Program-made: the position numbers and the translations under genes
Notes under the pieces: generated by a model
Databases searched by the model: none
Seen by the model: the letters and a program-made list of their open reading frames with translations, nothing else
Told to the model about the DNA's origin: nothing
In this document: positions 684 to 33,179 of the stretch, one piece after another
How positions within the stretch are numbered: position 1 is the stretch's first letter
Layout of the letters: every line of letters starts with the position of its first letter
NCBI GenBank assembly: GCA_040754395.1
Contig: JBFMCL010000030.1
Coordinates: forward strand, 1-34,572
Origin: Nitrospirota bacterium
GTDB lineage: Bacteria; Nitrospirota; Thermodesulfovibrionia; Thermodesulfovibrionales; SM23-35
DNA length: 34,572 nucleotides
Direction of reading: 5' to 3'

Positions 684-1799
684 CTATCTATCTCCTTTTA
701 TCTTACCGCCATATTTTAAATAGAAGTCAAAGTAATCTTCTAAGAATTTTTGACGATTCTCGATGGCATATTTTTCAACCGCAGCCTGAGAAATGTACGT
801 CTGAAACTTTAACAAGTCCCGATATCTTGTTTCAATATCGATGCCTTTTTCAACCTGGCTCTTTAATCTCTTCAAAAATTCGCTCAAAAATTTCAAAAAT
901 GATCTTATATTTCGTTCATTGCCACTCTGAATTAGATCGTTTAAAAAGAAAAAAACAGTAACACCTATCGCCCTATTCTTCAGAACAATCGCGCTGTTTT
1001 CCAGATAGCGGTATACCTCATCGAGGCTTTCCTTTAGAAGAGTGGCCACTTTCTTGTCTTCTGCGGTAAACCTCAGATTCTTCTTGAAAAAATCTTGCAA
1101 GTCTACAAACCTAGCTCTTCCATATGAATTATCTTTGTTAAGCGAAAAGAAATTTAAGGCAATTTGCGCTGCAGTAAGTTCTTTTGAAAACCTTTTCTTC
1201 GGGATACGAAGAAAATCAAAATATTCATGTTTGCCTAATTTCTTGAAAACAAATTCTTTCATATCCCCTACCATTGCATTCAATTTCTCTCCAGCATTTA
1301 AAGGAGCACCTAGCTGAAGTCTTAAAAACATCAAATTTAATTCTTCCTCATCTTTATCGATGTCAGTAATTTCTATCACATTAAAAATATAGTTCAGGAG
1401 TTTCTCCTTGTGTTGCCGCTTATTCAAGAAGTCCTCCCATGTCTTGTTGTCGTATGCGCTAAGTATGCTTCCTCCCAACAATTCATCTGAGCTCTTAAAT
1501 ACAAACTTATTATCGTATTTGTTATGGTCGTCCTCGTTCTCCTCCTTACCCTCATTGAGTCCAAGGAAAGAAAGAATTGCATTAATTCGTTGGCGTCCAT
1601 CTATACATTCATAAATTCCATCATCACGCTTATGTAAATAAATGCTCGCAATGTCAAAATTCCGAAGAATAGAGTCAATGAGCTTTCGTTTCTTATCGAG
1701 ATCCCACACCGTAGGCTCCCGTTGAAATTCAGGGAACTCTATCGCCTTATATCTTCGTTGGAGGTCTTCTATTGACCATTCAGCATTTTTCTTTTTCAT
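684..1799 (-). CDS. DUF262 domain protein (GmrSD/ParB-like N-terminal fold), island operon gene 3
   Basis: The protein has 371 residues. The N-terminal DUF262 motifs are clear: FPEFQR at 22-27 with W32, and DGRQR at 67-71, the variant of the DGQQR signature seen in GmrS, SspE and related defence proteins, where this domain binds or hydrolyses nucleotides. The C-terminal 170 residues look helical and charged. I see no HNH/DUF1524 nuclease motif there, although GmrSD- and SspE-type proteins usually carry one. The ATG overlaps the stop of the SIR2 gene by four bases (ATGA at 1799-1796), so translation is coupled. A role as sensor or NTPase switch for the SIR2 partner, or as a DNA-modification reader, is inferred. 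The family assignment is firm; the function is not. Confidence 0.85.
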   Translation of the reverse strand: MKKKNAEWSIEDLQRRYKAIEFPEFQREPTVWDLDKKRKLIDSILRNFDIASIYLHKRDDGIYECIDGRQRINAILSFLGLNEGKEENEDDHNKYDNKFVFKSSDELLGGSILSAYDNKTWEDFLNKRQHKEKLLNYIFNVIEITDIDKDEEELNLMFLRLQLGAPLNAGEKLNAMVGDMKEFVFKKLGKHEYFDFLRIPKKRFSKELTAAQIALNFFSLNKDNSYGRARFVDLQDFFKKNLRFTAEDKKVATLLKESLDEVYRYLENSAIVLKNRAIGVTVFFFLNDLIQSGNERNIRSFLKFLSEFLKRLKSQVEKGIDIETRYRDLLKFQTYISQAAVEKYAIENRQKFLEDYFDFYLKYGGKIKGDR

Positions 1800-2887
1800 G
1801 TTTTATAGTAAAAATTATGGACAATATTTTGAGGTGGTGTTTTTATATCCAATTTGAAGCGATCTATCAGATAGCCGATTTTTGCATCCAACCACTCTTG
1901 AAACGGATTTGTCTTGTCTTTATCAAGAAATTTAGCAGTGATCTCAGCAATTAGTTCGCCGGGAGATGCTGAAGGAAAGAACTTTTTATAGTAGTATAAA
2001 ATTTCGGGCATATCTATCAAAGACTGAAAATCCAAATATTCATAATTATGGGTTATGGCCGTCGCTACTGATGGATAATCGATTATTTCAATCTTGATCA
2101 TTTTCCCCGTATGATTAAACCGCTGAACTGTATACAATATTGGAATTAATCCCCAATCATTTCTACTGAGCGAGCATCCAATAATCCTCAGTATATCACA
2201 CCGCATCAAAATTTCTGAGGCCTGTCCCCATAAAAGATTGAAGGGGTAATTGTCCTTCTTCTTTTCTACACCCGGCGGAATCCAGAGCGAATCTGAAGAT
2301 TTTGTTGCAGTCATGCTTTTTACCGTAACAGGTCGTGTATTTTGCCAATTAAAAGAACCATGCAGTTTCAAAATTTTTATAGCCTTCGTGCGTGGCCTTG
2401 ATGTGTCTAAATGCAACGAGTAATCGATGGCAAACCCCAAAGGCGCTTTTATTGTTCTTTCAAGAATATCCTCATAATTAAGAGTAATAAAGCATAATAA
2501 CTCTTCATCGAAGCTGTTCACGTTATTGTGCAGATCAATTAAAACCGTATACAAATTCTTGGCAGGCAATTTCTTCAATTCCGGGCTACTCCTTATGATA
2601 TCAACGATTGCGTTTCTATAGTATTCTCTAATTATTTCAGAGGCAAAATAGTGATGCTGAGATTCCAGCACTGATATTAAATGTTCAATATCTTGTACTG
2701 TAATTAACTCACTCCATATCTTATCACTCAGCCGTTTCGAAGGGTATTTGCGGTGGTTGCGCGCCATTCTTTCCTGAATGTCTTTCGTAAGAAGGCTAAG
2801 GGTAGGACTAATCGATTTAAGCACGGCGTGTGTTGCGCCCGCACCAAATAAATAAACCACTTTTTTCTTATCACGTCTATTAACCAT
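1796..2887 (-). CDS. SIR2-like protein, probable NAD+-consuming defence effector, island operon gene 2
   Basis: The protein has 363 residues. The SIR2-like signatures occur in order: a nucleotide-binding loop FGAGAT at 14-19, FITLNYED at 133-140 (the TTNYD equivalent), KLHGSFNW at 174-181 with the catalytic-type His at 176, and IIGCSLSRNDWGLI at 235-248 (the GYSLxD equivalent). This pattern is that of SIR2 domains in bacterial immunity proteins such as ThsA, DSR2 and SIR2-Argonaute/HerA partners, which degrade NAD+ when phage is sensed. A deacetylase is less likely because the zinc-binding cysteines of classical sirtuins are absent. No transmembrane segment is evident. The start lies three bases after the methyltransferase stop and is preceded by a GGAG ribosome site inside that gene. 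The NADase role is inferred from motifs and context. Confidence 0.85.
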   Translation of the reverse strand: MVNRRDKKKVVYLFGAGATHAVLKSISPTLSLLTKDIQERMARNHRKYPSKRLSDKIWSELITVQDIEHLISVLESQHHYFASEIIREYYRNAIVDIIRSSPELKKLPAKNLYTVLIDLHNNVNSFDEELLCFITLNYEDILERTIKAPLGFAIDYSLHLDTSRPRTKAIKILKLHGSFNWQNTRPVTVKSMTATKSSDSLWIPPGVEKKKDNYPFNLLWGQASEILMRCDILRIIGCSLSRNDWGLIPILYTVQRFNHTGKMIKIEIIDYPSVATAITHNYEYLDFQSLIDMPEILYYYKKFFPSASPGELIAEITAKFLDKDKTNPFQEWLDAKIGYLIDRFKLDIKTPPQNIVHNFYYKT

Positions 2888-2890
2888 AGA

Positions 2891-4099
2891 CTACTTTCTC
2901 CAAACAATCAAACTTTCGCGGGCTGGCTCACGCTTGTGCCTCGACATTTGCTGGGAGCTATTGCCACGATATCGCAAGACATAGATGCCTTTCAGGCTTA
3001 ATCCAATCTGTTCACCGATTTCAGCCAATATTTTATCTACAGAAATCATGAGACCGGAGAAACGCACATTACTAACAACGAGTCCGATATGGCCTCCAAG
3101 CTTCAAAACACTCGACATTTCTTTCAGAGATAGGAACATATCCTCGAAATATCCAATAATTGTTGCAATAATTCTAGGGTTATTCATCTTACGGTTATAT
3201 AATTCATTTACCGTTTCCTCAAGGATTACAGGCCTCACATAGCCGACCGCTTTATATTTTTCCTTAGCTTCAACATGCGACCTCAAAGTCTCATACCGGA
3301 GTTTTTTGAGGGTATCATTATCCTTTATGAACCCGACCAGTAATTCAAGCTCATATATCCTCGTATAGTCGTGTCTATTTGGATATGGTGGAGAAGTCAA
3401 AATGGCATCATACTCATGAGCTTTTACTTCATTGGGAAGTCCCCTTGCGTCACCAATTACTGCTATAGATTGAGCGTCTGTGTATTTGAAATGCGATAGA
3501 GAGTCTATATATTTTTCTGACGACTCAATAAACATTTTCTTAAATACTGCAATAGGAACTCTTCTCTGTCCCGTAATGCGGAGGAATCCACCGGCTTTCT
3601 TTGCTTTACTCGCATTATCAAGAACACTAAGCAAACAAAAAAGAAAGAAATCTTTCTCTGGAGATGACAAAAGATTAATTGAGTCTCGTAATGAAAACAT
3701 GTATTTCAACGTGTCATTTGAAAATGATTTCATAAGAATGGCAACATCCGGAATATTTACTCTGGGGTTAACCGCATGTGAAATTTTGCTGATGGTTCTT
3801 TTAAGTTTATCCCCATTAAATGTTTTAGTTAGAGTATTCGCCAAGAAAACAGAAAAAGGAGAAATATCTACGCCCACTGAATTATATCCATCCATTCTTG
3901 CTTTGATAAGAGTGGTGCCTCCACCGCTATAGATGTCGAGCACCTTATCTCCTTTAGTCAGTCCGAAAGAATCAAAGATCTTCGAAACCAGTTCACTGCC
4001 AAATCGATGCTTAAATGCATACCAGTTGAAAGGGGCAGCATTCCTGTCAGACAGTGGAGAAACAAACTTACCCCATTCTAATTTTTCGACTATTTCCAT
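2891..4099 (-). CDS. DNA methyltransferase (N4-cytosine/N6-adenine type), island operon gene 1
   Basis: The protein has 402 residues. The AdoMet-binding motif I is VLDIYSGGGTT at 53-63, followed by VGVDIS at 75-80 (acidic motif II). The catalytic motif IV is TSPPY at 235-239, continuing NRHDY. The order I then IV with about 170 residues between, and the C-terminal ESLIVW ending, fit the TSPPY group of amino-methyltransferases rather than cytosine-5 enzymes. The intervening region, about 100-230, is mostly helical and may hold target recognition. No restriction endonuclease domain is fused or adjacent. It is the first gene of the operon and has no visible Shine-Dalgarno sequence; an inverted repeat sits where one would be expected. 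It probably marks host DNA for a SIR2/DUF262 partner pair. Confidence 0.85.
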   Translation of the reverse strand: MEIVEKLEWGKFVSPLSDRNAAPFNWYAFKHRFGSELVSKIFDSFGLTKGDKVLDIYSGGGTTLIKARMDGYNSVGVDISPFSVFLANTLTKTFNGDKLKRTISKISHAVNPRVNIPDVAILMKSFSNDTLKYMFSLRDSINLLSSPEKDFFLFCLLSVLDNASKAKKAGGFLRITGQRRVPIAVFKKMFIESSEKYIDSLSHFKYTDAQSIAVIGDARGLPNEVKAHEYDAILTSPPYPNRHDYTRIYELELLVGFIKDNDTLKKLRYETLRSHVEAKEKYKAVGYVRPVILEETVNELYNRKMNNPRIIATIIGYFEDMFLSLKEMSSVLKLGGHIGLVVSNVRFSGLMISVDKILAEIGEQIGLSLKGIYVLRYRGNSSQQMSRHKREPARESLIVWRK

Positions 4100-10108: not shown

Positions 10109-11527
10109 TCAGAGCACCTTCAGTGCCGCTTCTGTTATCACGGGATCAAACTGTGTATTGTTGCACCTTTTCAGCTCCTGGTATGCGTACTCCTTGCCCG
10201 GAGCCGGGCGGTAGGGTCTGTTTGCTGTCATGGAATCAAAAGAATCTGCAACATGAAGTATTCGTGAGCAAAACGGAATTTCCTCGCCTTTGAGCCCATC
10301 AGGATACCCTTGTCCGTCAACCCTTTCGTGGTCGTGTCTGATAATGGGTATGATGTCTTTGAGCTGTTTCACTTTTTCGAGCACGGAAACTCCGAGAAGA
10401 GGATGCCTCCTGATCACTTCGAACTCTTTTTCTGTCAGTTTCTCCGGTTTGTCAATGAGCTGGTCATACTGAATCTGCCCGATATCGTGCAGAAGCGCGG
10501 CCAAGCGCAGTTTTTCCATGTCATCGTTTCCGAGACCCATCTCTTTTGCAATTTTCAGGGAATATGTAGTCACCCGCTGAGAATGTCCCTTGTTCCATGG
10601 TCTCCGTTCGTCGCATGCATTTACTACTGCGGTCACAAATCCCATAAAAAGTTTTTCAAGCCTTTTGTATGAGTCGCAGATATCATCGATGATTTCAAGA
10701 AAAATCCCTTCATTTTTTTCAGCTTTTTCTGCCCACTGACGGAGATTTCGCTCATTCTCACATAAGGACTCCATTGCATGCCTCTGTCGTGTTATGTCTT
10801 CGACGGTTCCTCTGAAATACAGGAAATGATCATTGAGATCCCTGACTGCACGGATGTTTTCCGATATCCATACCCTGCTTCCGTCCTTGCGAAATGCCTG
10901 CGACTCAAAACCCGAAACTGCTTCGATCTTTTTTGCCAGTGACAAAACCTTCGGACGCTGGTCAGCCTTCACGTAGAATTTATATTCTTTCCCGTTCAGG
11001 CTTTTCAGGAGCTCATCAGGAGAATCGAATCCCAGTATCTGCGCAAAAGCACGGTTTGAGGTAATGTAATGTCCTTCAGGAGCCATAAGATAAATGCCCT
11101 CAACTGCATTGTCGAATATCGACCGGTAGATTTCTTCTTTCTTCCGCAAATGCCCGAATTCTATCGCCTTCGACAACTTCGTGAGGAGTTCCTCAGCACT
11201 GAACGGCTTCACTATATATTCAAACACATTTATTCCCATGGCCTTAATCGAGGCCTGCATCATACTTTGGTCTGTAATGATAATGCTTGCTACTTCTGGC
11301 TTGCCCGACATAGCTGCCCTGAGAAGGGCGATGCCGTCCATGTCAGGCATAACGACGTCAATAAGAAACAGGTCGTAATCATGTGTCTTGAGTGCCTCAA
11401 GGACATCTTCCCACATCGAAAAGCTGTCCGCCTGATATCCGGACTTCGCCAGAATCTCGCAAAGAGATTTCAGGAAATCGGCATTGCTGCCGAAGACCAT
11501 TATGTTTCCAAGGTTATACTTTACCAT
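10109..11527 (-). CDS. Receiver-PAS-HD-GYP protein, predicted cyclic-di-GMP phosphodiesterase
   Basis: The protein has 472 residues. An N-terminal receiver (about 8-122) has the phospho-acceptor Asp57 in LFLIDVVMPDMDG and Lys107 in VKPF, but the usual acidic pair near residue 12 is replaced by VFGSN. A PAS domain (about 132-255) ends in the EDITRQ signature. The HD-GYP domain (about 300-470) has HDIG, then HDHERVDGQGYPDGL, and ADSFDSMTANRPYRP. HD-GYP enzymes hydrolyse cyclic-di-GMP and so lower the biofilm signal. It is cytoplasmic. It lies downstream of, and in the same orientation as, the kinase-regulator pair at 11625-13705, but with a 97-base gap that may hold its own promoter. Confidence 0.92.
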   Translation of the reverse strand: MVKYNLGNIMVFGSNADFLKSLCEILAKSGYQADSFSMWEDVLEALKTHDYDLFLIDVVMPDMDGIALLRAAMSGKPEVASIIITDQSMMQASIKAMGINVFEYIVKPFSAEELLTKLSKAIEFGHLRKKEEIYRSIFDNAVEGIYLMAPEGHYITSNRAFAQILGFDSPDELLKSLNGKEYKFYVKADQRPKVLSLAKKIEAVSGFESQAFRKDGSRVWISENIRAVRDLNDHFLYFRGTVEDITRQRHAMESLCENERNLRQWAEKAEKNEGIFLEIIDDICDSYKRLEKLFMGFVTAVVNACDERRPWNKGHSQRVTTYSLKIAKEMGLGNDDMEKLRLAALLHDIGQIQYDQLIDKPEKLTEKEFEVIRRHPLLGVSVLEKVKQLKDIIPIIRHDHERVDGQGYPDGLKGEEIPFCSRILHVADSFDSMTANRPYRPAPGKEYAYQELKRCNNTQFDPVITEAALKVL

Positions 11528-15904: not shown

Positions 15905-17884
15905 CTAATTCTCGAACATCACCTTGCCCATGTCCGAGACATCATAGCCTCCGAGCTCTTTTACGGCGTTCCTGAACTCACTGTCTGCCTTTACAATTCT
16001 CAGAAGGCGCTGCAGCAGATCTGTTGCAAAAAACTCCCGGGCAATTGCAAGGTCATATCTCTCCTGCGCCACAGGGATAAAATCCAGGTTTAACGCCCGT
16101 GCAGAAGCGAGAATGGCCAGCCCTGTGTCGGCGATTCCAGTCAAAACCGCTGACGCAACTCCCATGTGGGTGTATTCCTCTCTCTCATACCCACTGACAT
16201 CTCCCGGCTTTATGCCAAGTTCTCTCAGGCACTTGTCTGTAAGGAGCCGTGTTCCCGCGCCCGACTGTCGGTTCACAAACACCACGTCTCCTCTTGTCAG
16301 GTCCTCAAAGCCCCTGATATTTTTGGGATTGCCCTTCGGGACAAGGAGCCCCTGCTCACGGTATACCAGATTCATCAGCACAATCCTTTTGTCAGAGAGC
16401 AATCTGTTAATAAAGGATATGTTATATTCACCGGTATTCTCATCCAGAAGGTGGGTACCAGCCAGATGAGCTTCTCCTTTTTTTAACGCTACCAGACCTC
16501 CCATGGAACCGACATGGGCGGACGAGAGAGATGTCCCCGGATATCTCTTCCTCAGACTGTTGGACAGCAGATCAAGGGCATTGTCATGACTCCCGATACA
16601 GACTATCGTATTCTCGATATCGTGCCTGGTCCTCATCAGTTCAACCTCTATCTCGGCTCCGGCACCTATCCCTTCGGACATTGCCGGTATCCTTACAAAA
16701 CCGTCAGCACGGACAAGAGACATGAGCACTCCTGCGCCCCGGCTGACCGGTGTCGCGATAAAATTCTCTCCGACCTTCCCGACCTTTACCCTGAGGAATT
16801 CCTCCATACCGAGAGGAGATGCAACCTGCCTTGAAAGCAGTGCCCTGAGAATCTGGGGCTCTTCAATGTCGAGTCCCTGCCATCGGTACAGAAGCGGCCT
16901 GGCAAATAATGTGAAGGTAATGTAAGCAGATACAGGATACCCCGGGATGCCGATGACGGGTTTGCCCTTCACGATTCCAAGGATAACAGGCTTTCCCGGC
17001 TTTATACTGACTCCGTGAAGTATCACCTCGCCGATTTCCCTGATAACCTCTGCGGTGAAATCTTCAGAACCGGCAGATGCACCCGCGTTCACAATGATCA
17101 TATCTCCGGTTTCATGGGCTTCGAGAATCGCTTTCTTGAGTGCTTCAGGGTCATCAGGAACGATCCCGAACCTGACAGGTTCGCACCCCCATTCAGCAAC
17201 AAGGCCGCCCAGTATCCGGGTGTTGAATTCGATAATATCCCCTGTCTTCAGCTCCGAGCCCGGTTCAACAATCTCGTTGCCCGTCGGAATGACTACGACT
17301 CTCGGTTTTCTTCTGACCGACACGCCGGCATGTCCTCCGCCAAGCATTGCCCCGATATCCACAGGCCGTATCCGCTGATTTTCAGGGAGGATCAGCTCGG
17401 TTGCCACAATATCTTCGCCGATTACCCTCACATGCTGCCACGGCGTGGCAGGAGAGATGATCTCGATACATTTCTCCCCTTTCTGTCCTCTTTCAGGCAG
17501 GGAGGATATGGAAGGGTCTACCTGCTGCTGGTACACGACATTTACATCCTCGACCATTATGACGGCATTGAAGCCCTCAGGGATCGGGTCTCCTGTATCA
17601 ACATACACAGCCTTTTCTCCTGTCTTCAAACGTATTGGCGTCCGTTCAGAGGCCCCGAAGGTCTCCGCAAACCGCACGGCATATCCGTCCATTGCTGACG
17701 AATGATAAAAAGGTGATGAAATTCTTGCGGTTACTGCTTCAGCGGTTACTCTTTGAAGAGAATCTTTTACTGCGGTGCTTTCTCCGGGAAAAGGCTTGAG
17801 AATGCCTTCTGATTCAAGCCTTCCAAGCCACTTTGAGAGCGCTTCCCGCAAAGGGGTACTCTCAAGATATATCTCCCGCTGCAT
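15905..17884 (-). CDS. MoeA molybdopterin molybdotransferase fused to a periplasmic-binding-like domain
   Basis: The protein has 659 residues. Residues 1-410 are MoeA-like: SSAMDGYAVR near the start, the VVVIPTGNEIVEPG stretch, then GASAGSEDF, and KPGKPVILG with IGIPGYPVSAYITF. Residues about 425-650 match the PBP_like (LysR-substrate-type) domain found after MoeA in many anaerobes: GSHDNALDLL, SSAHVGSMGG, AGTHLLD, FVNRQSGAGTR. MoeA inserts molybdate or tungstate into adenylylated molybdopterin; the PBP part may bind the oxyanion or the cofactor. The start codon overlaps the receiver-gene stop (TAATG), so it is translated with the two-component pair. Confidence 0.93.
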   Translation of the reverse strand: MQREIYLESTPLREALSKWLGRLESEGILKPFPGESTAVKDSLQRVTAEAVTARISSPFYHSSAMDGYAVRFAETFGASERTPIRLKTGEKAVYVDTGDPIPEGFNAVIMVEDVNVVYQQQVDPSISSLPERGQKGEKCIEIISPATPWQHVRVIGEDIVATELILPENQRIRPVDIGAMLGGGHAGVSVRRKPRVVVIPTGNEIVEPGSELKTGDIIEFNTRILGGLVAEWGCEPVRFGIVPDDPEALKKAILEAHETGDMIIVNAGASAGSEDFTAEVIREIGEVILHGVSIKPGKPVILGIVKGKPVIGIPGYPVSAYITFTLFARPLLYRWQGLDIEEPQILRALLSRQVASPLGMEEFLRVKVGKVGENFIATPVSRGAGVLMSLVRADGFVRIPAMSEGIGAGAEIEVELMRTRHDIENTIVCIGSHDNALDLLSNSLRKRYPGTSLSSAHVGSMGGLVALKKGEAHLAGTHLLDENTGEYNISFINRLLSDKRIVLMNLVYREQGLLVPKGNPKNIRGFEDLTRGDVVFVNRQSGAGTRLLTDKCLRELGIKPGDVSGYEREEYTHMGVASAVLTGIADTGLAILASARALNLDFIPVAQERYDLAIAREFFATDLLQRLLRIVKADSEFRNAVKELGGYDVSDMGKVMFEN

Positions 17885-18234: not shown

Positions 18235-20693
18235 GTCTGTCCTCCCTTATCTGTATCATTTCTTTTTTGCAATGGAATTACCACCCTGAAGGTGCTTCCC
18301 TCCCCCGGCCTGCTCTCCACTTCGATGCTCCCGTCGTGTTCCTCGATAATCCTGTGAGTAATGGTAAGACCAAGTCCGGTACCGGATTTCTTGGTCGTAA
18401 AGAAGGGATCGAATATATATGCAAGGTCATCTTCGGAGATTCCGGGTCCGGTATCTTTTATCTCAAAAATGCATGAGCCATTTCTGACATATGTTTTGAC
18501 TGAGATTGTGCCATTCGTCCCCACCGCCTGAACCGCATTGGTAAGAATATTGAGCAGGGCGTCCTTGACCCTGTTCGGGTCCACGAATATTTCTATGGGC
18601 AAACTGTATTCCTTTACAAGGACAATGCCACGGTCATCTATTTCGGACCAAATGAGGGATATGACTCCGTCTATGACCTCATTCGAATTCACCGTCTCTT
18701 TTATAATCCTCGTTTCCTTGACAAAACTCAGAATTTCGTTCAGGATGCCCTCAAGTCTCCCGACCTCTTTGGCAATAATATCCGCATACTCCTTCAGGCT
18801 TCCGTCCAGCTTTTTTTCGAGCCTCCGCGCAAACCCTCCGAGAGAGACAAGAGGATTGCGTATTTCGTGTGCAACCCTTGCTGCGACCTCTCCGAGAGCA
18901 GCCAGTCTGTCTGTCTTTATCACCCTCTCCCGCAGGTTTTTCAGCTCTGTGATATCACTCACGACATTCACCGTTCCGATAAATTCCCCGGAGATATCAA
19001 AAATCGGGGAACTCGAAGTAATGAATGTCCCTCCCAGATAATGGTCTTCAACTTCTTCAACAAATGCCTCCCGTCTTTCGACGGTCTTCATATGAGGACA
19101 TTCCGACAGAGGCTGTTTTGTCCCGTGGAATACCTCATAGCATTTCTTCCCGATGATATCGCCGGGAGGCATGCCCAGCCGGCTGCTGACCGCTTTATTG
19201 ATATTCTTCACGACATGGTCCCGGTCAACAAAGTACACCATGTCAGATATCGATTCAAAAATGTTCTCCATCTCCTGCTCGGCGAGCTTTACCCTTTCGA
19301 ACAACCGTGCGTTTTCTATCGCTGCGGCAACATGGTTTGAAAAAGCCGTCAGAAACCGCAGATCCTCCTCATTCACCGGCCTTCTGTTGAAATAGTTGTC
19401 CACCCAAAGCACACCGATCACCTTGTTTCGCGAAATCAGCGGCACTGCCGCATATGCCTGGGTCCCGAGCTGCTGCACAAGAACCGCATCGGAAAGAAGT
19501 TCCCTGCTCACGTCATCGATATTGAAGAGTTTTTTCTCATTTACCGCCCTCGTGAGTATAGTGTTTTCTGTAAGAGGGATCTCGATCCCCATGCTCAGCC
19601 TGTCGAAAAAAGAATCCTTTCTCAACGGCCCTATCTCAATATCGTGCATGATGTCCGGGAGAGTCTTTCTTTCGAGAGAGAGCCGGTCCCATATGTGAAA
19701 GGCCTCTTCATGGCTTGCCGGACCGACTCCCATCGCTCCCTTCAACACATTTTTTTCTTCGTCGACCAGGAAAAGGATCGCCCGGTTGAAGCCGAGCCCG
19801 TCACCCATCGTAACGGCTGTCAGCACCATCCTCAGCAGCCTGTCGAGTTCAAGGGTTCCCCTCATTGCAGAACTTATGAAAAACAGCCTCGAGAGTTCCT
19901 GATTTCTTCTGACAAGCTCCTTCTCGACATTCTTTTTCTCTGAGATGTCCCTCGATATCCCGCTGATGCCGATCACTTCGCCTGCAGTATTTTTTATCGG
20001 GGAAAGGGTAAGGCTGACCGAGATGATCGTCCCGTCCTTTCTCTTTCTGAACGTCTCGATTCTCTTCAGGACTTCTCCTGCTTTTATCCTTTTGTTGTTT
20101 TCCCATTCAGGATCGATGAGAAAATCGGGGACAAACGGCAGGAATTGCCCAATCGCCTCCTCTTTTGAGAAGCCGTATATCCTCTCCGCACCCCTGTTCC
20201 ATGAAGTAATAATGCCGTGCAGATCAGAGGAGACTATCGCATCCGCCGAATTCTCTATGATTCCCTCGAGGTAGTCCTTTGTCAGCGCAACTTCGTTGTA
20301 AAGCCTCAGGACCTCGTCATGGCAGAGCATTCTGTCGGTAATATCCTGGATAAACACCACCCCTTCAATGATATTTCCCTCGTTGTCCCTCAAAGGGTAG
20401 GCAGAAAGCTCCGCGTACCGTGCAGATTCATTGTCAGCAAGCTTTTGTGTCACTATGTACACGTTCCCTGTCTCGAAGGTCACTTCCGCTGCACAGTGCG
20501 GACACACCCAGTTGTGATGATGAAAGACTTCCCTGCAGTCCTTGTCGATAAGGTCAGCGGGGGAGATGTCTGTCCAGTTCCCGATAGCCTTGTTTACCGC
20601 CATGATCCTGAATTCCCGGTTCAGTATGATGATCCCGTCGCGGATGTTTTCAAAGAGCACTTCTGTAATCTTTTCCCTGTCAGCTATGTTCAT
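18231..20693 (-). CDS. Cytosolic multi-sensor histidine kinase (PAS-PAS-GAF-PAS-HisKA-HATPase)
   Basis: I chose the ATG at 20693 (820 residues); a TTG two codons earlier is possible. PAS1 (about 12-125) contains a His/Cys stretch HHHNWVCPHC. PAS2 lies at about 145-262 and ends in RDISEKK. A GAF domain spans about 280-465. PAS3 (about 470-590) has GKKCYEVFHG and SECPHM. HisKA carries the phospho-acceptor HEIRNPL (His611 in the longer frame). HATPase has NILTNAVQA, DTGPGI and GTGLGL. No transmembrane segment is seen. It follows glgA by 12 bases and is coupled to the receiver gene by an ATGA overlap. The Cys/His residues suggest redox or metal sensing, but this is inference. Confidence 0.94.
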   Translation of the reverse strand: MNIADREKITEVLFENIRDGIIILNREFRIMAVNKAIGNWTDISPADLIDKDCREVFHHHNWVCPHCAAEVTFETGNVYIVTQKLADNESARYAELSAYPLRDNEGNIIEGVVFIQDITDRMLCHDEVLRLYNEVALTKDYLEGIIENSADAIVSSDLHGIITSWNRGAERIYGFSKEEAIGQFLPFVPDFLIDPEWENNKRIKAGEVLKRIETFRKRKDGTIISVSLTLSPIKNTAGEVIGISGISRDISEKKNVEKELVRRNQELSRLFFISSAMRGTLELDRLLRMVLTAVTMGDGLGFNRAILFLVDEEKNVLKGAMGVGPASHEEAFHIWDRLSLERKTLPDIMHDIEIGPLRKDSFFDRLSMGIEIPLTENTILTRAVNEKKLFNIDDVSRELLSDAVLVQQLGTQAYAAVPLISRNKVIGVLWVDNYFNRRPVNEEDLRFLTAFSNHVAAAIENARLFERVKLAEQEMENIFESISDMVYFVDRDHVVKNINKAVSSRLGMPPGDIIGKKCYEVFHGTKQPLSECPHMKTVERREAFVEEVEDHYLGGTFITSSSPIFDISGEFIGTVNVVSDITELKNLRERVIKTDRLAALGEVAARVAHEIRNPLVSLGGFARRLEKKLDGSLKEYADIIAKEVGRLEGILNEILSFVKETRIIKETVNSNEVIDGVISLIWSEIDDRGIVLVKEYSLPIEIFVDPNRVKDALLNILTNAVQAVGTNGTISVKTYVRNGSCIFEIKDTGPGISEDDLAYIFDPFFTTKKSGTGLGLTITHRIIEEHDGSIEVESRPGEGSTFRVVIPLQKRNDTDKGGQT

Positions 20694-25690: not shown

Positions 25691-26482
25691 TTGGTCGGGG
25701 AGATACTCAAGAAACGACGGGAAGAACTGGGGCATGATCTTAGGGACATCTCCAATATCCTGAAAATCAAGCATGATTACCTGAAGGCAATCGAGGAAGG
25801 TTCGTTCGAGAAACTTCCTGAGCCTGTATATATAAAAGGCTATATCCGGAAATACTCAGAACACCTTAAGATAGATCCTGAAACCACTCTTCATGCGTAT
25901 AATCAGCAGGTATCTTCAACAGAAAAGAGAGAAGTCCCGGATCATCCGGTTACGCTGCAAAAACGTTTCAAGCTCAGGTATGTGGTAATCCCCGCTATTT
26001 TTGCCGTTGTTGTCGCAGTTTCTCTCTCTGTCATTTCCTCATTCACTTCAAAAGAACCGGCAGATACGCGCAATATTCCGGAATCCCAAAAGCAGCTTTC
26101 TTTGCCGGCTGAACCAGCGCAAAATACCCATGATACTGTTCCGCAAAGCCAGCCATCCCCTGAACCACCTCAGGTTCCCGCAAACACAGTCATTCCCGGA
26201 CCAGAAACAGCCGGAAAAACCCTTCCTGCTGACCATACGCCGCATACTCTGGAGGTAAAGGCAACCGATATTACCTGGTTCTCTGTCAGGATAGATGAAA
26301 AAAATCCCAGAGAGATTACGATAACTCCCGGTGAAACTCTGAAATTTCACGCGGAGAAAGTCTTTTCGCTTACAATCGGAAATGCGGGCGGAGTGAAACT
26401 GATTTTTGACGGCAAAGAGGTCAGGAAACTTGGAGAAAAAGGGGAAGTTGTGAAAATCACTCTGCCTGAATCCCGGTTGTAA
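25691..26482 (+). CDS. RodZ-like protein: HTH_25, one membrane segment, DUF4115
   Basis: The protein has 263 residues and starts with TTG, four bases after AGGAGG; an ATG at 25687 is out of frame. Residues 1-70 form a RodZ-type helix-turn-helix (LKKRREELGHDLRDIS, then YIKGYIRKYSEHL). One transmembrane segment spans about 97-115. A Pro/Gln-rich linker (about 120-170) leads to a DUF4115 domain (about 172-263) with ITWFSVRID and KLIFDGKEV. RodZ connects MreB to the cell-wall elongation machinery in E. coli. No mreB or rod gene is adjacent, and many phyla carry such proteins with unproven roles, so I leave the symbol empty. Confidence 0.88.
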   Translation: MVGEILKKRREELGHDLRDISNILKIKHDYLKAIEEGSFEKLPEPVYIKGYIRKYSEHLKIDPETTLHAYNQQVSSTEKREVPDHPVTLQKRFKLRYVVIPAIFAVVVAVSLSVISSFTSKEPADTRNIPESQKQLSLPAEPAQNTHDTVPQSQPSPEPPQVPANTVIPGPETAGKTLPADHTPHTLEVKATDITWFSVRIDEKNPREITITPGETLKFHAEKVFSLTIGNAGGVKLIFDGKEVRKLGEKGEVVKITLPESRL

Positions 26483-26546: not shown

Positions 26547-28241
26547 ATGCAGCCAAAGAAAGACAAAAGAAGATTCACACGATACAAACACAAAACAGAC
26601 TTTTACCTTTCCTATAAAAATACCTCAATAAAAGCCTGGATTACCGATTACTCCCTGCAGGGCATCGGGTTCCTGATTGATGCTCCGCCATCAACTCCTC
26701 TTGAGACAGACGTACATTTTCATATTCATATACTTCAAGCCGATGGGGAAGGCAAAATAATATGGTCTGAGACAACCGATTCCCAGATCAGGGGAGGAAT
26801 CGAGATAAAAGAAATCCGCGGGTCTCTCAGGCACTATCCGCTGGCTGATATACTTATCGATCTGCAGAGAAGCCTGAAAACAGGGGCCCTCGACATCCGG
26901 AGCGGCCCGTTTATCAGAAGAATCTATATCAGAAACGGCGCGCTGGTTTTTGCAACTTCCAATAAGGAAGAAGACCGTTTTGTCGAAGTTCTTCTCAGGA
27001 CAGGGAAGATAACCAGCGATCAATATTATCAGATAACCGACCGTGCGCAAAAAAAGGGGAAAAGTCACAGTGAGATCCTTATTGAACTCGGATATCTCTC
27101 TTCTCAGGACATCATCCAGGCAATACAGTATCAGGTCGAGACGATAATCCTGAGCCTTTTTCAGCTGGAAGACGGAGCGGTTACTTTCGTTGAAGGCCCG
27201 ATGGTGTCCGAAAAGGCCGTGAAACTCAGGCTGAACGCAGCAGATATCATATTCCGGGGGATAAAAACAATAAAAAACCCCCAGCACATCGAAAACGTTA
27301 TGCCTCCGGCAGATACCATACCGGTAAGTTCCATCGAAAAGTCAGCTCTGCAGGAGGACATTGTTCTCGAAAAACCGGACAGGGATATTTTGGAATTAAT
27401 CGACGGGAAACGAACAATAAAAGAAATACTGTCGGCATCGCCAACAGACGCCTTCAGGACGATCAAAACCCTGTATGCCCTTCTCAGTCTTCAGATAGTC
27501 GAAATGACCGAGACAGAACCCCCCGTAGAGGAAAAACCGCATGACGATACGGTAACTGAACCGGAACTTGTGGATGACCCCGATTTCGTAAAAAGAGTCG
27601 AAGAGCTGTACGGCAAAATAGACTCCTCCGACTATTACAGTATTCTCGGGGTCGAAAAATGGGCCACGCTGGAACAGATAAAAAAAGCGTATCATAAGGC
27701 CGCCAGAGAATTCCATCCCGACAGACATTCCGGATCGTCGTCTTCTGCATTAAGAATGAAACTGAACACGACCTTTTCCCGTCTTACGGACATATACAAA
27801 ATTCTGTCCGATTCCAAACTGCGAATGGAATATGACCAGCGCCTGACACAGGGACCGGACACAATGCGGACAGACAACATCGCCATGGCAAGAGCAGCTT
27901 ACAGAGAAGGGAAGGAGGCATTTCACAGGGGAATGTATGCCGAGGCAAAAGAACTGTTTGGACGGGCTGTGTATCTTGACAGTTCGGTACCCAACTACCA
28001 TTACTACCTGGGACTTATATATCAAAAAGAGAAAAGGTTCCATGAGGCAGGGAAGATCATGACCGAGGCACTGAAACTCGACCCGAATAATTCTGAATAT
28101 CTTGCTGAACTCGGCTATCTGTACATCCACCTGGGATTTCCGCTGAGGGCAAAGTCTGCCTTCGAAAAGGCGATAAGAAATGACCCCCGCAATAAAAAGG
28201 CTCTCGAGGGACTGCAGAAAGTAAAAGCTGTTGCCGATTGA
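26547..28241 (+). CDS. PilZ-DUF4388-DnaJ-TPR multidomain protein
   Basis: The protein has 564 residues. An N-terminal PilZ domain (about 7-95) shows KRRFTRYKH and DYSLQGIGF, equivalents of the RxxxR and D/NxSxxG cyclic-di-GMP contacts. A DUF4388 domain (about 92-215) begins GSLRHYPLADILIDL. A linker leads to a J domain (about 352-420) with YYSILGVEKWATLEQIKKAY and the HPD motif at about 389-391. TPR repeats occupy about 440-560. The HPD motif predicts stimulation of DnaK. The combination suggests a cyclic-di-GMP-responsive co-chaperone or scaffold, possibly for motility; that is inference. No signal peptide is present. Confidence 0.92.
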   Translation: MQPKKDKRRFTRYKHKTDFYLSYKNTSIKAWITDYSLQGIGFLIDAPPSTPLETDVHFHIHILQADGEGKIIWSETTDSQIRGGIEIKEIRGSLRHYPLADILIDLQRSLKTGALDIRSGPFIRRIYIRNGALVFATSNKEEDRFVEVLLRTGKITSDQYYQITDRAQKKGKSHSEILIELGYLSSQDIIQAIQYQVETIILSLFQLEDGAVTFVEGPMVSEKAVKLRLNAADIIFRGIKTIKNPQHIENVMPPADTIPVSSIEKSALQEDIVLEKPDRDILELIDGKRTIKEILSASPTDAFRTIKTLYALLSLQIVEMTETEPPVEEKPHDDTVTEPELVDDPDFVKRVEELYGKIDSSDYYSILGVEKWATLEQIKKAYHKAAREFHPDRHSGSSSSALRMKLNTTFSRLTDIYKILSDSKLRMEYDQRLTQGPDTMRTDNIAMARAAYREGKEAFHRGMYAEAKELFGRAVYLDSSVPNYHYYLGLIYQKEKRFHEAGKIMTEALKLDPNNSEYLAELGYLYIHLGFPLRAKSAFEKAIRNDPRNKKALEGLQKVKAVAD

Positions 28242-28287: not shown

Positions 28288-29055
28288 ATGATCAGAAGTA
28301 CTTTCAGCATATTAAACGGTATCGGCGAAAGGCTTGAAAAAAAACTGTGGCGCTCGGGCATACTTACCTGGGGAGATTTTATCAATTCCCCCCGGATAGA
28401 CTTCCTGAATCCGCTCAAGAAGAATCTCTATGATTCACGTCTGTCCGAAGCCCTTACCGAACTCGCGAATGCAAATGCGGAATATTTTGCAGCTTCCGTC
28501 AAAAGAAGGGAACACTGGAGACTTTTCGAAAAATTCAGGGGAGACGCCGTCTGTCTAGATATAGAAACGAACGGCCTGATGCCCGGAAGCGGCGGGTATG
28601 TGACCATGGTCGGCATGTTCGACGGATTCGATTACAAATGTTTTCTTAAAGATGAAAACCTCTCCCCCGGGATCCTGAGAAAAGAACTCTCCGGTTACAA
28701 GTATCTGATTACATTCTATGGCGCAGGATTTGATATCCCTTTCCTCATGAGGTCGATGCCGGGATTGAAGTTCAACATTCCGCACTTTGACATCTGCTTC
28801 GGAGCCCGAAAAATCGGATTCAGGGGAGGCCTGAAGAAACTCGAAATAGAACTGGGCATTTTCAGAGACGATAGCGTCAGAGATATGGATGGATATGATG
28901 CGGTAAAACTCTGGGAGCAAAGTCAGAGAGGAAGCCGGGAAGCGCTCGATCTGCTCAGAACCTACAACAGGGAAGATACCGTTAATCTCTGCAAAATAGC
29001 CGATATCGTGTATCACAGGATGAGAGCACAAACAGGAATAGAGGAGTACCTCTAA
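28288..29055 (+). CDS. Predicted DEDD-type 3'-5' exonuclease (YprB/RNase_H_2 family)
   Basis: The protein has 255 residues. Acidic catalytic positions are Asp91 and Glu93 in CLDIETNG, Asp149 in FYGAGFDIPF, and Asp230 in YNREDTVNL. The first 35 residues (ILNGIGERLEKKLWRSGILTW) resemble a helix-hairpin-helix DNA-binding start, common in this family. It would trim RNA or DNA 3' ends in the cytosol; the natural substrate is not established. It follows the PilZ-DnaJ gene by 46 bases and precedes the cysteine-rich gene by 12 bases, so the three may be co-transcribed. Confidence 0.86.
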   Translation: MIRSTFSILNGIGERLEKKLWRSGILTWGDFINSPRIDFLNPLKKNLYDSRLSEALTELANANAEYFAASVKRREHWRLFEKFRGDAVCLDIETNGLMPGSGGYVTMVGMFDGFDYKCFLKDENLSPGILRKELSGYKYLITFYGAGFDIPFLMRSMPGLKFNIPHFDICFGARKIGFRGGLKKLEIELGIFRDDSVRDMDGYDAVKLWEQSQRGSREALDLLRTYNREDTVNLCKIADIVYHRMRAQTGIEEYL

Positions 29056-29067
29056 ATAAACCGGCCT

Positions 29068-29601
29068 ATGTACAGCATCCTGCGCAGCATCTCCCTTGCA
29101 CATATCCTTAAAGAGAGATATGCACAGGTATTGCTTAAACGCGGGGTTCTCCCCCTTCTCGAAAATCTCGACAGATGTATCGAAGCCTCGCAGAATAGCA
29201 TGATTTCAGCAGGTGTTGTTACGGAGTGTGCTGATTGTGCGCAGAACGAGGAAGGGACCTGCTGCGGACTAAGAACGGGAAACAAGTACGACAGCCTGAT
29301 TCTTCTGGTAAATCTTCTGCTGGGCAGGTCACTTCCAGAAAAAGCGCAATTCCCAGACCGTTGTTATTTTCTCACGGATAAAGGATGTGCCCTGAGAGCC
29401 CGCCACGTCATCTGCGTGAATTTCGTTTGCCAGCGCCTCAGAAACAGCATACCCATCGCTGCACTCATACGCCTTCAGGCAATTGCCGGCGAGGAGATTC
29501 ACACGCTCTTTCTCCTCGAGGAAAACATCAAAAAAATAATAGGTCATGAAATAGCAGCCATAAAAAAACAGGAACGACATGTTTTGCAGATTCGTATTTA
29601 G
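29068..29601 (+). CDS. Cysteine-rich protein of unknown function, possible metal or Fe-S binder
   Basis: The protein has 177 residues. Eight cysteines sit in a patterned middle section: Cys54, 57, 65 and 66 (CADCAQNEEGTCC), then 99, 107, 116 and 121 (DRCYFLTDKGC, VICVNFVC). The arrangement recalls YkgJ/CxxCxxCC-like putative metal-binding proteins, but the spacing differs and I cannot assign a family. The flanks are helical. No signal peptide or membrane span is evident. It lies 12 bases after the exonuclease gene and overlaps the start of the CAP gene by 23 bases. Confidence 0.75.
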   Translation: MYSILRSISLAHILKERYAQVLLKRGVLPLLENLDRCIEASQNSMISAGVVTECADCAQNEEGTCCGLRTGNKYDSLILLVNLLLGRSLPEKAQFPDRCYFLTDKGCALRARHVICVNFVCQRLRNSIPIAALIRLQAIAGEEIHTLFLLEENIKKIIGHEIAAIKKQERHVLQIRI

Positions 29602-31366: not shown

Positions 31367-33013
31367 TTAGCGTATATAGAGATGCAAAAGATGATATTTC
31401 CCATCAATGATGTTGGGAACATCCCTGAGTTTCTGCCCTTTCCACTGTGATTCACTCCAGATAAAAGGTCGTCCTTTGACATGAGGTGAACCATACTTCA
31501 TCCAGAAACTGGGGTATGGCGAATTGAGATCGAATATCCCTTCAAGGTCTTTCGCGTATGAAGCCATATTCGCGGAAAACACCTTGGCATCAATCGAGCC
31601 GTCGGGCACGGTCTTCGGGGTGGGAGTCAACCCGTAGCCAAGATCCCACCTCCCGTAAATTGAAAGCGGATTGTCCGGATCGGTATAGGTAATAAGCGCC
31701 TTTGCGCTTTCAATATCGTTCAGATTGCTGATCGCCTTAAGGAACTGATACCTGCGTGCAGGACGGGTATCGATTGCATGTAAATCGTCCCTGATCTGGT
31801 AGGATACCGGATAATTGATGCCGAGGATATACTCTGCAGTGATCAGTTCCGGGTCATATCCTTTATACAGGGCATCCGGCTTTGTGATGACATCGTATCC
31901 GTTCTGGCCGTTCGGCTTGAAAAACACGAAACTCTTGTACGACATTTCTACCAGGCCTATCTCACGGGTCTTCACATCGACTATCATGTACCCGTTCATA
32001 TAGGTGCCCGAAGGTTCGAGCGAGAGATAATCGAAAAACTCATCGAGGGACCCGGAGAACTGCTCCGCGAGGGACGACCTCCATACCATCCAGAGCGCGT
32101 CTTTCTTTGGCTGACTGTAGGTGGCATGATGGGTAGTTTCGTTGAACATTATGCCCCTGTTGTTATAACCAAAATCGGTAAGAGACGAAATCAGGCCGGG
32201 AGACAAGGTGTTGAAAGTCACAAACGTATCATTGATAGAGAGATTCATTGCCATGCTCTGCGCAAGAAATCCGTACCAGGAGTTATGGGCAATATAAATA
32301 TCGTCCGCCGTTTTCTTCACAAAGGCCGAACACTTCGGCAGGCGCAAGGGGGTCGGTGCGTCAACAAGAGAAGCGATTACATCCATCAAATCGGCGCTGC
32401 CGTTAATAAAATATATGTCCATAAATGTAAGATCCGGAGTCTCGTATCCGAGCAGAAGTTCGGAAGGGCTGAAATAGCCCACATCAGGAAGCCATTCTCC
32501 GCTGAAATCAAGCGTTGCAGGAGTTTCAAGCAGTGTCCCGTGGTAGATGCCCAGCATTCTGAAAAGAAGCCGTTTCAGATTCTGCGCGGTTACAGGGTTC
32601 GGCTGTTTCCTTATATACTCAATAGTGTAGGCATAATTATCTTTCAATACTCCCAAAGCGGTCGAAAGCTCCCCCTGTGTGGGAGGTATCTGTGCAGGAA
32701 AAGCGTGAGAAGGGTCTGTAAGGTATGCAACATCCCAGTAGTTGTCTCGTGCCGAGACAATAAGGTTCCGCTGGAGCTTTCCCTGGATAAAGCCGGCATC
32801 ATACTCTGCCTTAAGGGCATTCTCGTGCTTTGAGACAATAGTCACGTTATATATGTTGTCCACGAGCTTCATGGCACCCTGCGCATTCGGTCCCAGGCTG
32901 AAAGTGTTTATTTTATTCTCTTTCCCGGAACTTCCTGACCCACCGCAGCCGACGATAAAAAAAATCGCGGAGATAAGAAATACGATACAAAGAACTTTTT
33001 GGCATGATTTCAT
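31367..33013 (-). CDS. Lipoprotein of the phospholipase B-like / Ntn-hydrolase family
   Basis: I chose the ATG at 33013 (548 residues), nine bases after AAAGGA; it creates a typical lipoprotein signal with lipobox FIVGC (Cys23). The mature part resembles phospholipase B-like (PLBD/p76) proteins: LPKCSAFVKKTADDIYIAHN with Cys228 as the likely N-terminal nucleophile after self-cleavage, then SWYGF, the block EPSGTYMNGYMIVD, and YISYP-like Tyr/Pro-rich ends. Characterised homologues are lysosomal amidase or phospholipase enzymes of eukaryotes. Bacterial members are few. The substrate here is unknown; an outer-membrane or periplasmic amidase is inferred. Upstream is tRNA-Leu, 167 bases away. Confidence 0.8.
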   Translation of the reverse strand: MKSCQKVLCIVFLISAIFFIVGCGGSGSSGKENKINTFSLGPNAQGAMKLVDNIYNVTIVSKHENALKAEYDAGFIQGKLQRNLIVSARDNYWDVAYLTDPSHAFPAQIPPTQGELSTALGVLKDNYAYTIEYIRKQPNPVTAQNLKRLLFRMLGIYHGTLLETPATLDFSGEWLPDVGYFSPSELLLGYETPDLTFMDIYFINGSADLMDVIASLVDAPTPLRLPKCSAFVKKTADDIYIAHNSWYGFLAQSMAMNLSINDTFVTFNTLSPGLISSLTDFGYNNRGIMFNETTHHATYSQPKKDALWMVWRSSLAEQFSGSLDEFFDYLSLEPSGTYMNGYMIVDVKTREIGLVEMSYKSFVFFKPNGQNGYDVITKPDALYKGYDPELITAEYILGINYPVSYQIRDDLHAIDTRPARRYQFLKAISNLNDIESAKALITYTDPDNPLSIYGRWDLGYGLTPTPKTVPDGSIDAKVFSANMASYAKDLEGIFDLNSPYPSFWMKYGSPHVKGRPFIWSESQWKGQKLRDVPNIIDGKYHLLHLYIR

Positions 33014-33179
33014 TGCATACATTCCTTTCGTACTACAAATAATTCTCTCACAGCAAGTATTGCAAAAAGGAGGTGAAGCCTCGATCTTAAAAACACACTT
33101 GTGACGATATCTATAGTTTGTACATCTTTTTTTCATAGCAATCAGGGCAGAGTCAACTGATAGCTTTGCAGACATTTTC

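Follow-up and report, generated by a model that had tools for sequence, protein, structure and literature searches.

Gene and domain architecture

The DNA analysed here (the window) comprises 34,572 nucleotides of a Nitrospirota genome and carries, at positions 26547-28241 of the forward strand, an ATG-started open reading frame for a protein of 564 amino acids. The reading frame, Pfam, family matches and an AlphaFold2 model together describe a PilZ-PATAN-J-TPR protein, in which a PilZ domain (residues 6-91, positions 26562-26819; PF07238) is followed by a DUF4388, or PATAN, domain (residues 91-242, 26817-27272; PF14332), a J domain (residues 362-430, 27630-27836; PF00226) and three TPR repeats with a capping helix (residues 447-560, 27885-28226; three stretches matching TPR_2). 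This order within one chain had been proposed in the preliminary description and is borne out, all four domains scoring above the curated Pfam cut-offs: DUF4388 with 65.8 bits against 25, DnaJ with 63.5 against 27.8, TPR_2 with 58.2 against 27 and PilZ, narrowly, with 24.0 against 22.5. The same architecture was found again in related genomes and is therefore no artefact. The AlphaFold2 model of the full protein (alignment of 41 members) has a mean pLDDT of 89.1 and a pTM of 0.58; it folds the individual modules confidently and, at this pTM, leaves their relative arrangement and interdomain interface unfixed. The TPR helices of the model superpose on a designed TPR protein (VIA Z 20.6, rmsd 1.0, 117 aligned). 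Two further elements are absent from the preliminary description: an MshEN_N-like helical insertion inside the PATAN domain (residues about 144-196, 26976-27134), and a small helical stretch between the PATAN and J domains (residues about 255-322, 27309-27512), apparent from the secondary structure of the model and from family conservation, which is possibly winged-helix-like.

The J domain carries an intact HPD motif at residues 390-392, as first described, and this motif is kept in all 70 fetched family members. Neither the zinc finger (PF00684) nor DnaJ_C (PF01556) was matched in the window protein at E 0.1, whereas a DnaJ of a relative (L083:11981-13066) matches both. J proteins with the DnaJ zinc finger or DnaJ_C belong to classes A and B; the window protein, having neither, is a class C J-domain protein. 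The genome holds seven J-domain matches and three HSP70 matches, one of them strong (886.7 bits) and the others at 49.2 and 19.7 bits; a J-domain reading frame about 0.4 kb from the strong HSP70 match, on the same strand, is presumably dnaJ. Given the invariant HPD and the one strong HSP70 match, recruitment of DnaK by the window protein is a sound prediction.

Directly upstream, after a gap of 64 bases, lies a rodZ-like gene (25691-26482, forward strand; HTH_25 and RodZ_C), and directly downstream, after 46 bases, an RNase H-like gene (28288-29055, forward strand; PF13482, 96.5 bits). It is followed on the same strand by a gene at 29068-29601 with no Pfam match at E 0.1 that is conserved in synteny. 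Scans for promoters and terminators (8 versus 5.6 in shuffles; 11 versus 5.2) were not used for any conclusion. Elsewhere in the window, on the reverse strand, three adjacent genes at 684-4099 encode a GmrSD_N/NsnA-like protein, a SIR2-like protein and a type II DNA methyltransferase, and look like a small restriction or defence cluster. A fusion of MoeA with a PBP-like domain (15905-17884, reverse strand) adjoins a receiver-only gene and a large PAS/GAF histidine kinase, and a protein of 602 amino acids (31367-33175, reverse strand) matches Phospholipase B (PF04916, 65.0 bits), with no NCBIfam match at E 0.01.

An MshEN_N-like module within the PATAN domain

A 2006 paper reportedly presented PATAN as a domain 'with an alpha-helical insertion'. 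In the preliminary description, DUF4388 figured as a scaffold domain; the domain assignment holds, and the word scaffold says too little, as the helical insertion is, judged by sequence profiles first and modelled structure second, an MshEN_N module, the fold with which pilus ATPases bind c-di-GMP. The NCBIfam model NF053729 (MshE-related c-di-GMP motif) scores 26.0 bits on the whole window protein and 28.9 on the segment, against a cut-off of 38; at E 0.01 or less it is matched by 66 of 70 PATAN segments of the family, and ten segments, selected largely among the higher scorers, all lie above the cut-off (38.3-55.9 bits). When the window segment alone was searched against the PDB, four hits were returned at E 10, with PilF at the top (2.5e-6), PilB (9g1w) at 0.005 and MshE (5htl) at 0.13. 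A profile of the 70 segments reached PilF (6f8l) at 2.1e-18 and MshE (5htl) at 5.7e-8; the best 14 of 18 matches listed in that search are pilus ATPases aligned over domains of this kind, all at E 0.014 or less; Snf7, the first non-pilus match, follows at E 0.1. Profile-profile comparison with six MshEN_N segments of the same genome gave 98.9%; none of 50 column-shuffled controls exceeded 3.3%, and other parts of the family proteins stayed at or below 2.3%.

Since TPR matches filled the list in fold searches with the whole protein, the PATAN domain was folded alone (pLDDT 91.6), giving helices at 59-118 between strands. Foldseek superposed this model on c-di-GMP-bound MshE (5htl) to within 0.9 A across 53 columns, at 24% identity and probability 1.00; by E value (0.27) this match ranks fourth, behind EutJ (E 0.11, probability 0.38), and no match was returned at E 0.001. 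In VIA, MshE came first, with Z 6.4 and an rmsd of 1.7 for 58 aligned positions (model 56-113 on MshE 7-64), a score to be read with caution, as values of Z below 8 may reflect only a common arrangement and unrelated fumarase and aspartase helices reached 4.8.

The MshEN binding site is described as two 24-residue motifs separated by a spacer of five residues (PMC5013675), and the PATAN insertion keeps this 24+5+24 length without insertions or deletions in 66 of the 70 rows; the four others (L085, L114, L177, L178) received no motif score. It thus shares fold and register with the MshEN domains of MshE, PilB and PilF as these are described (PMC5013675; 5htl, 8pfa, 6f8l), and differs from them in being nested in a beta scaffold, in lacking MshEN_C and in its degenerate ligand residues. 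PF05157 was also considered and shows no similarity to the insertion; that model represents the region following the binding motifs, and the match comes from the region in front of it. A recognisable MshEN_N profile match is absent from two other DUF4388 proteins of the same genome (L066, L068) and, at E 10, from a distant DUF4388 protein of Thermomicrobium roseum, so that a recognisable module is not kept in every PATAN domain. In the passages found on both domains, the PATAN insertion is nowhere identified with MshEN. Wang et al. counted over 10,000 MshEN proteins, among them 22 genes in M. xanthus, and in the sections concerned name FrgA with 'previously uncharacterized domains' (PMC5013675); some of their proteins may be PATAN proteins, and the link is perhaps implicit in their supplement. 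Among the MshEN proteins of the genome studied here, two (C26:16655-16918 and 18545-18808, in frames of 603 and 607 amino acids) have identical N-terminal domains and lie about 1.9 kb apart, through recent tandem duplication or an assembly effect.

In the window protein, the ligand-contacting RLG is replaced by RFV in motif I and by SHS in motif II, with three of eight scored positions kept in each. Close relatives (L081, L083, L086) have RFI together with SxG, and G11V is among the changes listed in the part of Wang et al. that deals with the non-binding XpsE (PMC5013675). With these contacts lost and a change of the G11V type present, the insertion of the window protein probably does not bind c-di-GMP: the contacts that mark an MshEN c-di-GMP receptor in both motifs (RLG...G...L...L..Q) are incomplete, and the segment stays below the NF053729 cut-off. 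The relaxed motif of Wang et al. was found at both motifs in 0 of 66 scored members of the J family, at motif I in one and at motif II in 13. A separate group of PATAN-only proteins of 348-403 amino acids, consisting of one protein of the same genome (L202:288-1421, on contig C17) and 19 relatives (L183-L201), gives a different picture: 13 of the 20 fetched members carry the relaxed tandem motif with a spacer of five residues and nine a strict motif I, against 0 of 2700 reading frames from wide loci, the J family included. The copy in the same genome reads RLGKVLVKKGLLREEDLRTVLDEQ, then five residues, then RMGNILVKRGIVRKEDIEEILVGQ. Such PATAN-only proteins with the relaxed tandem motif are strong candidate c-di-GMP receptors.

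The PilZ domain and the history of the family

The PilZ part of the window protein, modelled with beta strands at 13-93, carries both canonical motifs, RxxxR as RRFTR (residues 8-12) and DxSxxG as DYSLQG (residues 34-39). Among the 51 PilZ-bearing members, [D/N]xSxxG is kept in every one and RxxxR in 50, the lone exception being L118, in which Glu replaces the first Arg. Identity to the window protein is only 30-49% among the 40 relatives in the first alignment, which argues that these positions are under selection rather than recently copied. Binding of c-di-GMP by the PilZ domain is thus a well-founded prediction from its motifs, in line with the second-messenger role first assigned to it, and the domain is the likely c-di-GMP sensor of the protein. 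Intact motifs do not single it out, being usual in this genome: 23 of 30 examined PilZ matches, some of them parts of tandem pairs, have both, out of 38 matches in total. With its 38 PilZ and nine MshEN matches, this genome of 3 Mb holds a large set of possible c-di-GMP receptors.

The preliminary description had called for a census of the architecture, which was carried out within the phylum. Some match at E 0.001 is present in all 61 genomes of the set (own, same family, same order), a count that takes in lone J or lone PATAN domains; full-length matches (starting no later than residue 7 and ending no earlier than 555) occur in at least 27 of the 61, own genome included, with an internal stop in two (G005, G015). 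The own genome has three full-length copies, that of the window (contig C30), C2:166846 and C5:74931, in addition to a PilZ-less copy (C4:108090) and five loci that match in the J domain only. In a sample of 295 genomes from the phylum, 119 have a match at E 1e-30 or less. Among the matches listed, the full-length ones outside the order (G202, G247, G212, G081) are all from the same class, and those in genomes graded as same phylum begin at residue 83 or later, that is, without PilZ. PATAN-J-TPR proteins without PilZ extend past the class. Plasmid records with a match number 91, none of them covering 80% of the query.

In a quick tree of 70 fetched members, a subset of all matches found from which one reading frame cut by the locus end (L101:41-1309) was left out, the PilZ-bearing rows form one side of a branch (one change versus a shuffled mean of 16.7; SH-aLRT 86). 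The PilZ columns were excluded from this tree, which was midpoint-rooted. PATAN-J-TPR would accordingly be the wider scaffold, to which PilZ was probably added once; under midpoint rooting, a single loss of PilZ is a possible alternative. The many PilZ-less relatives argue that the J-TPR part does not depend on PilZ to work. RLG in motif I of the insertion is present in 27 of 51 PilZ-bearing versus 16 of 19 PilZ-less members (Fisher p 0.026). Loss of the MshEN residues as a swap for PilZ was considered on this basis, and the association is unproven, as the tree holds one independent pair only.

Predicted role in c-di-GMP signalling and chaperone recruitment

We propose that the window protein is a c-di-GMP-responsive class C J-domain co-chaperone, an overall explanation whose chances we regard as evenly balanced. 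The PilZ domain is predicted to bind c-di-GMP through RxxxR and DxSxxG. Its C-terminal end is continuous with PATAN, and ligand binding might therefore reposition or dimerise the protein; it might also alter docking or the exposure of the J domain. PATAN and the TPRs would select or dock the client, or else a machine of the cell surface or cytoskeleton, and the J domain, as predicted from its invariant HPD, would bring DnaK to the docked client and stimulate the DnaK ATPase. The coupling of c-di-GMP binding to DnaK recruitment, suggested in the preliminary description, is plausible and remains our inference. The MshEN_N module of PATAN could itself bind c-di-GMP in ancestors or in other PATAN proteins; in the window protein its site has lost contacts, and PilZ, probably gained once, would be the remaining sensor. 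Because PATAN regulators of cyanobacteria bind PilB1, the motor of the pilus, a surface machine would be a reasonable client.

These same regulators favour a reading in which the protein acts as a polar or pilus adaptor, its PATAN and TPR parts docking on the motor of type IV pili or on some other polar machine, with c-di-GMP setting its location and the J domain bringing DnaK for assembly only, chaperone activity being unregulated. The PATAN response regulators of Synechocystis are reported, in the passages concerned, to bind PilB1, and PixG also PilC (PMC9090330, PMC12288463); PATAN holds the MshEN_N module of PilB-type ATPases; the genome has nine MshEN matches; and two PATAN proteins appear among the candidates in the relevant part of a study of pilus regulators in M. 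xanthus (PMC11580455). Against it, the scanned window genes include no pilus gene, and some orthologues share rodZ and RNase H-like neighbours instead. We regard this reading as possible, if tentative.

The neighbours themselves could speak for a housekeeping J protein of the rodZ locus that delivers DnaK to MreB/RodZ and in which PilZ plays a minor modulating part. For 42 anchors, 41 of them with a gene on both sides, a rodZ homologue lies directly upstream in six (window included), an RNase H-like homologue downstream in six (window included; at +1 in five and +2 in one) and a homologue of 29068-29601 at +2 or +3 in five (window included); rodZ is also the neighbour of L109, which belongs to another family of the order. 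It is missing in the other 36 of the 42 members, and the full-length C2 and C5 copies of the own genome sit elsewhere, by GGDEF genes: C2 is convergent with a GGDEF-EAL gene 22 bases away, and C5 has a GGDEF gene 2.5 kb upstream. We consider this role improbable. That the MshEN_N insertion of the window protein is a second c-di-GMP site seems very unlikely, in spite of a register and fold as in MshE and of the view in the pertinent passages of Wang et al. that perfect motifs are perhaps unnecessary (PMC5013675), given the lost contacts, the NF053729 score and the absence of the relaxed pattern at both motifs from all scored J-family members.

The preliminary description had pointed to the HD-GYP enzyme encoded at 10109-11527 as a natural counterpart. 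Its product is a response regulator in which Pfam finds PAS and HD-GYP domains (HDIG and GYP by eye). The pairing is not upheld: the gene lies 15 kb away on the other strand; by regex, an HD-GYP reading frame turned up within 6 kb of at least 3 of 42 members, a single gene accounting for two of these; and 24 GGDEF matches (two in one frame) are present in the genome, so that its c-di-GMP pool could be set by many enzymes. GGDEF reading frames were found near at least 4 of 42 members in the 6 kb regex scan, and with a looser pattern within 5 kb of at least 6 of 42, one of them doubtful (L090, 'FGSDEV'); these counts are lower bounds, since two genes recognised by Pfam, a GGDEF-EAL gene next to L089 and a GGDEF gene in the vicinity of L090, escaped both scans. 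The neighbourhood points to no single pathway.

A TPR region and a J domain in one chain are known from P58IPK/DNAJC3, in which we know of no sensor domain. That protein (2y4t/2y4u) is eukaryotic, and its J domain closes the chain (match over residues 372-449 of 450). For PilZ joined to an Hsp70 machine, the nearest experimental precedent found is the pair of PilZ-DnaK proteins CsdK1 and CsdK2 of M. xanthus, which are reported to enable accumulation of a PilZ client, giving an experimental link to a c-di-GMP-binding client; they contain DnaK itself where the window protein has a J domain, and the main text does not mention PATAN (PMC10313047). Likewise, four of the 24 PilZ proteins of M. xanthus combine PilZ with a DnaK or DnaJ domain, PATAN or TPR parts being undescribed in the passages concerned (PMC8316039). 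When the 24 PilZ genes were deleted, motility is reported there to have suffered only in the case of plpA, pixA and pixB, and development only in the case of pkn1 and pixB (PMC8316039). The four DnaK/DnaJ PilZ genes would thus be without reported phenotype, unless they are among plpA, pixA, pixB and pkn1, which these passages do not suggest. We count this scarcity of phenotypes against a c-di-GMP-responsive co-chaperone, along with the narrow PilZ score, the frequency of intact PilZ motifs in the genome, the Glu of L118, the numerous PilZ-less relatives, the unfixed interdomain interface and the uninformative neighbourhood. The regulators PixG, PixE and LsiR of Synechocystis share the PATAN domain, joined in them to a CheY-like receiver and not to J-TPR, and the relevant passages make no mention of PilZ (PMC7690835, PMC12288463). 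We found no co-mention of DUF4388 and PilZ in the literature searched and, in the passages on PilZ, PATAN and J proteins, met no second messenger that gates chaperone recruitment through a J protein. The joining of PilZ to a chaperone-machine domain is thus known, and the PilZ-PATAN-J-TPR combination, as a predicted architecture, is new; new as well is the recognition of the PATAN insertion as an MshEN_N module, which most deserves to be followed up.

On the doubtful side, we hold it conceivable that PATAN domains generally are, or descend from, c-di-GMP receptors in which a beta scaffold presents MshEN_N, and that one lineage coupled such a receptor to J-TPR, making DnaK recruitment c-di-GMP-dependent, before it swapped the eroding MshEN_N for a PilZ gained once. 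PATAN proteins act in cyanobacterial phototaxis, according to the passages concerned (PMC7690835, PMC12288463), and the MshEN_N identity of the insertion makes it testable whether PATAN binds c-di-GMP or pairs with the MshEN domain of PilB. If the proposed co-chaperone function is true, a second messenger would gate chaperone recruitment via a J protein, and chaperone help would be switchable by a signalling molecule.
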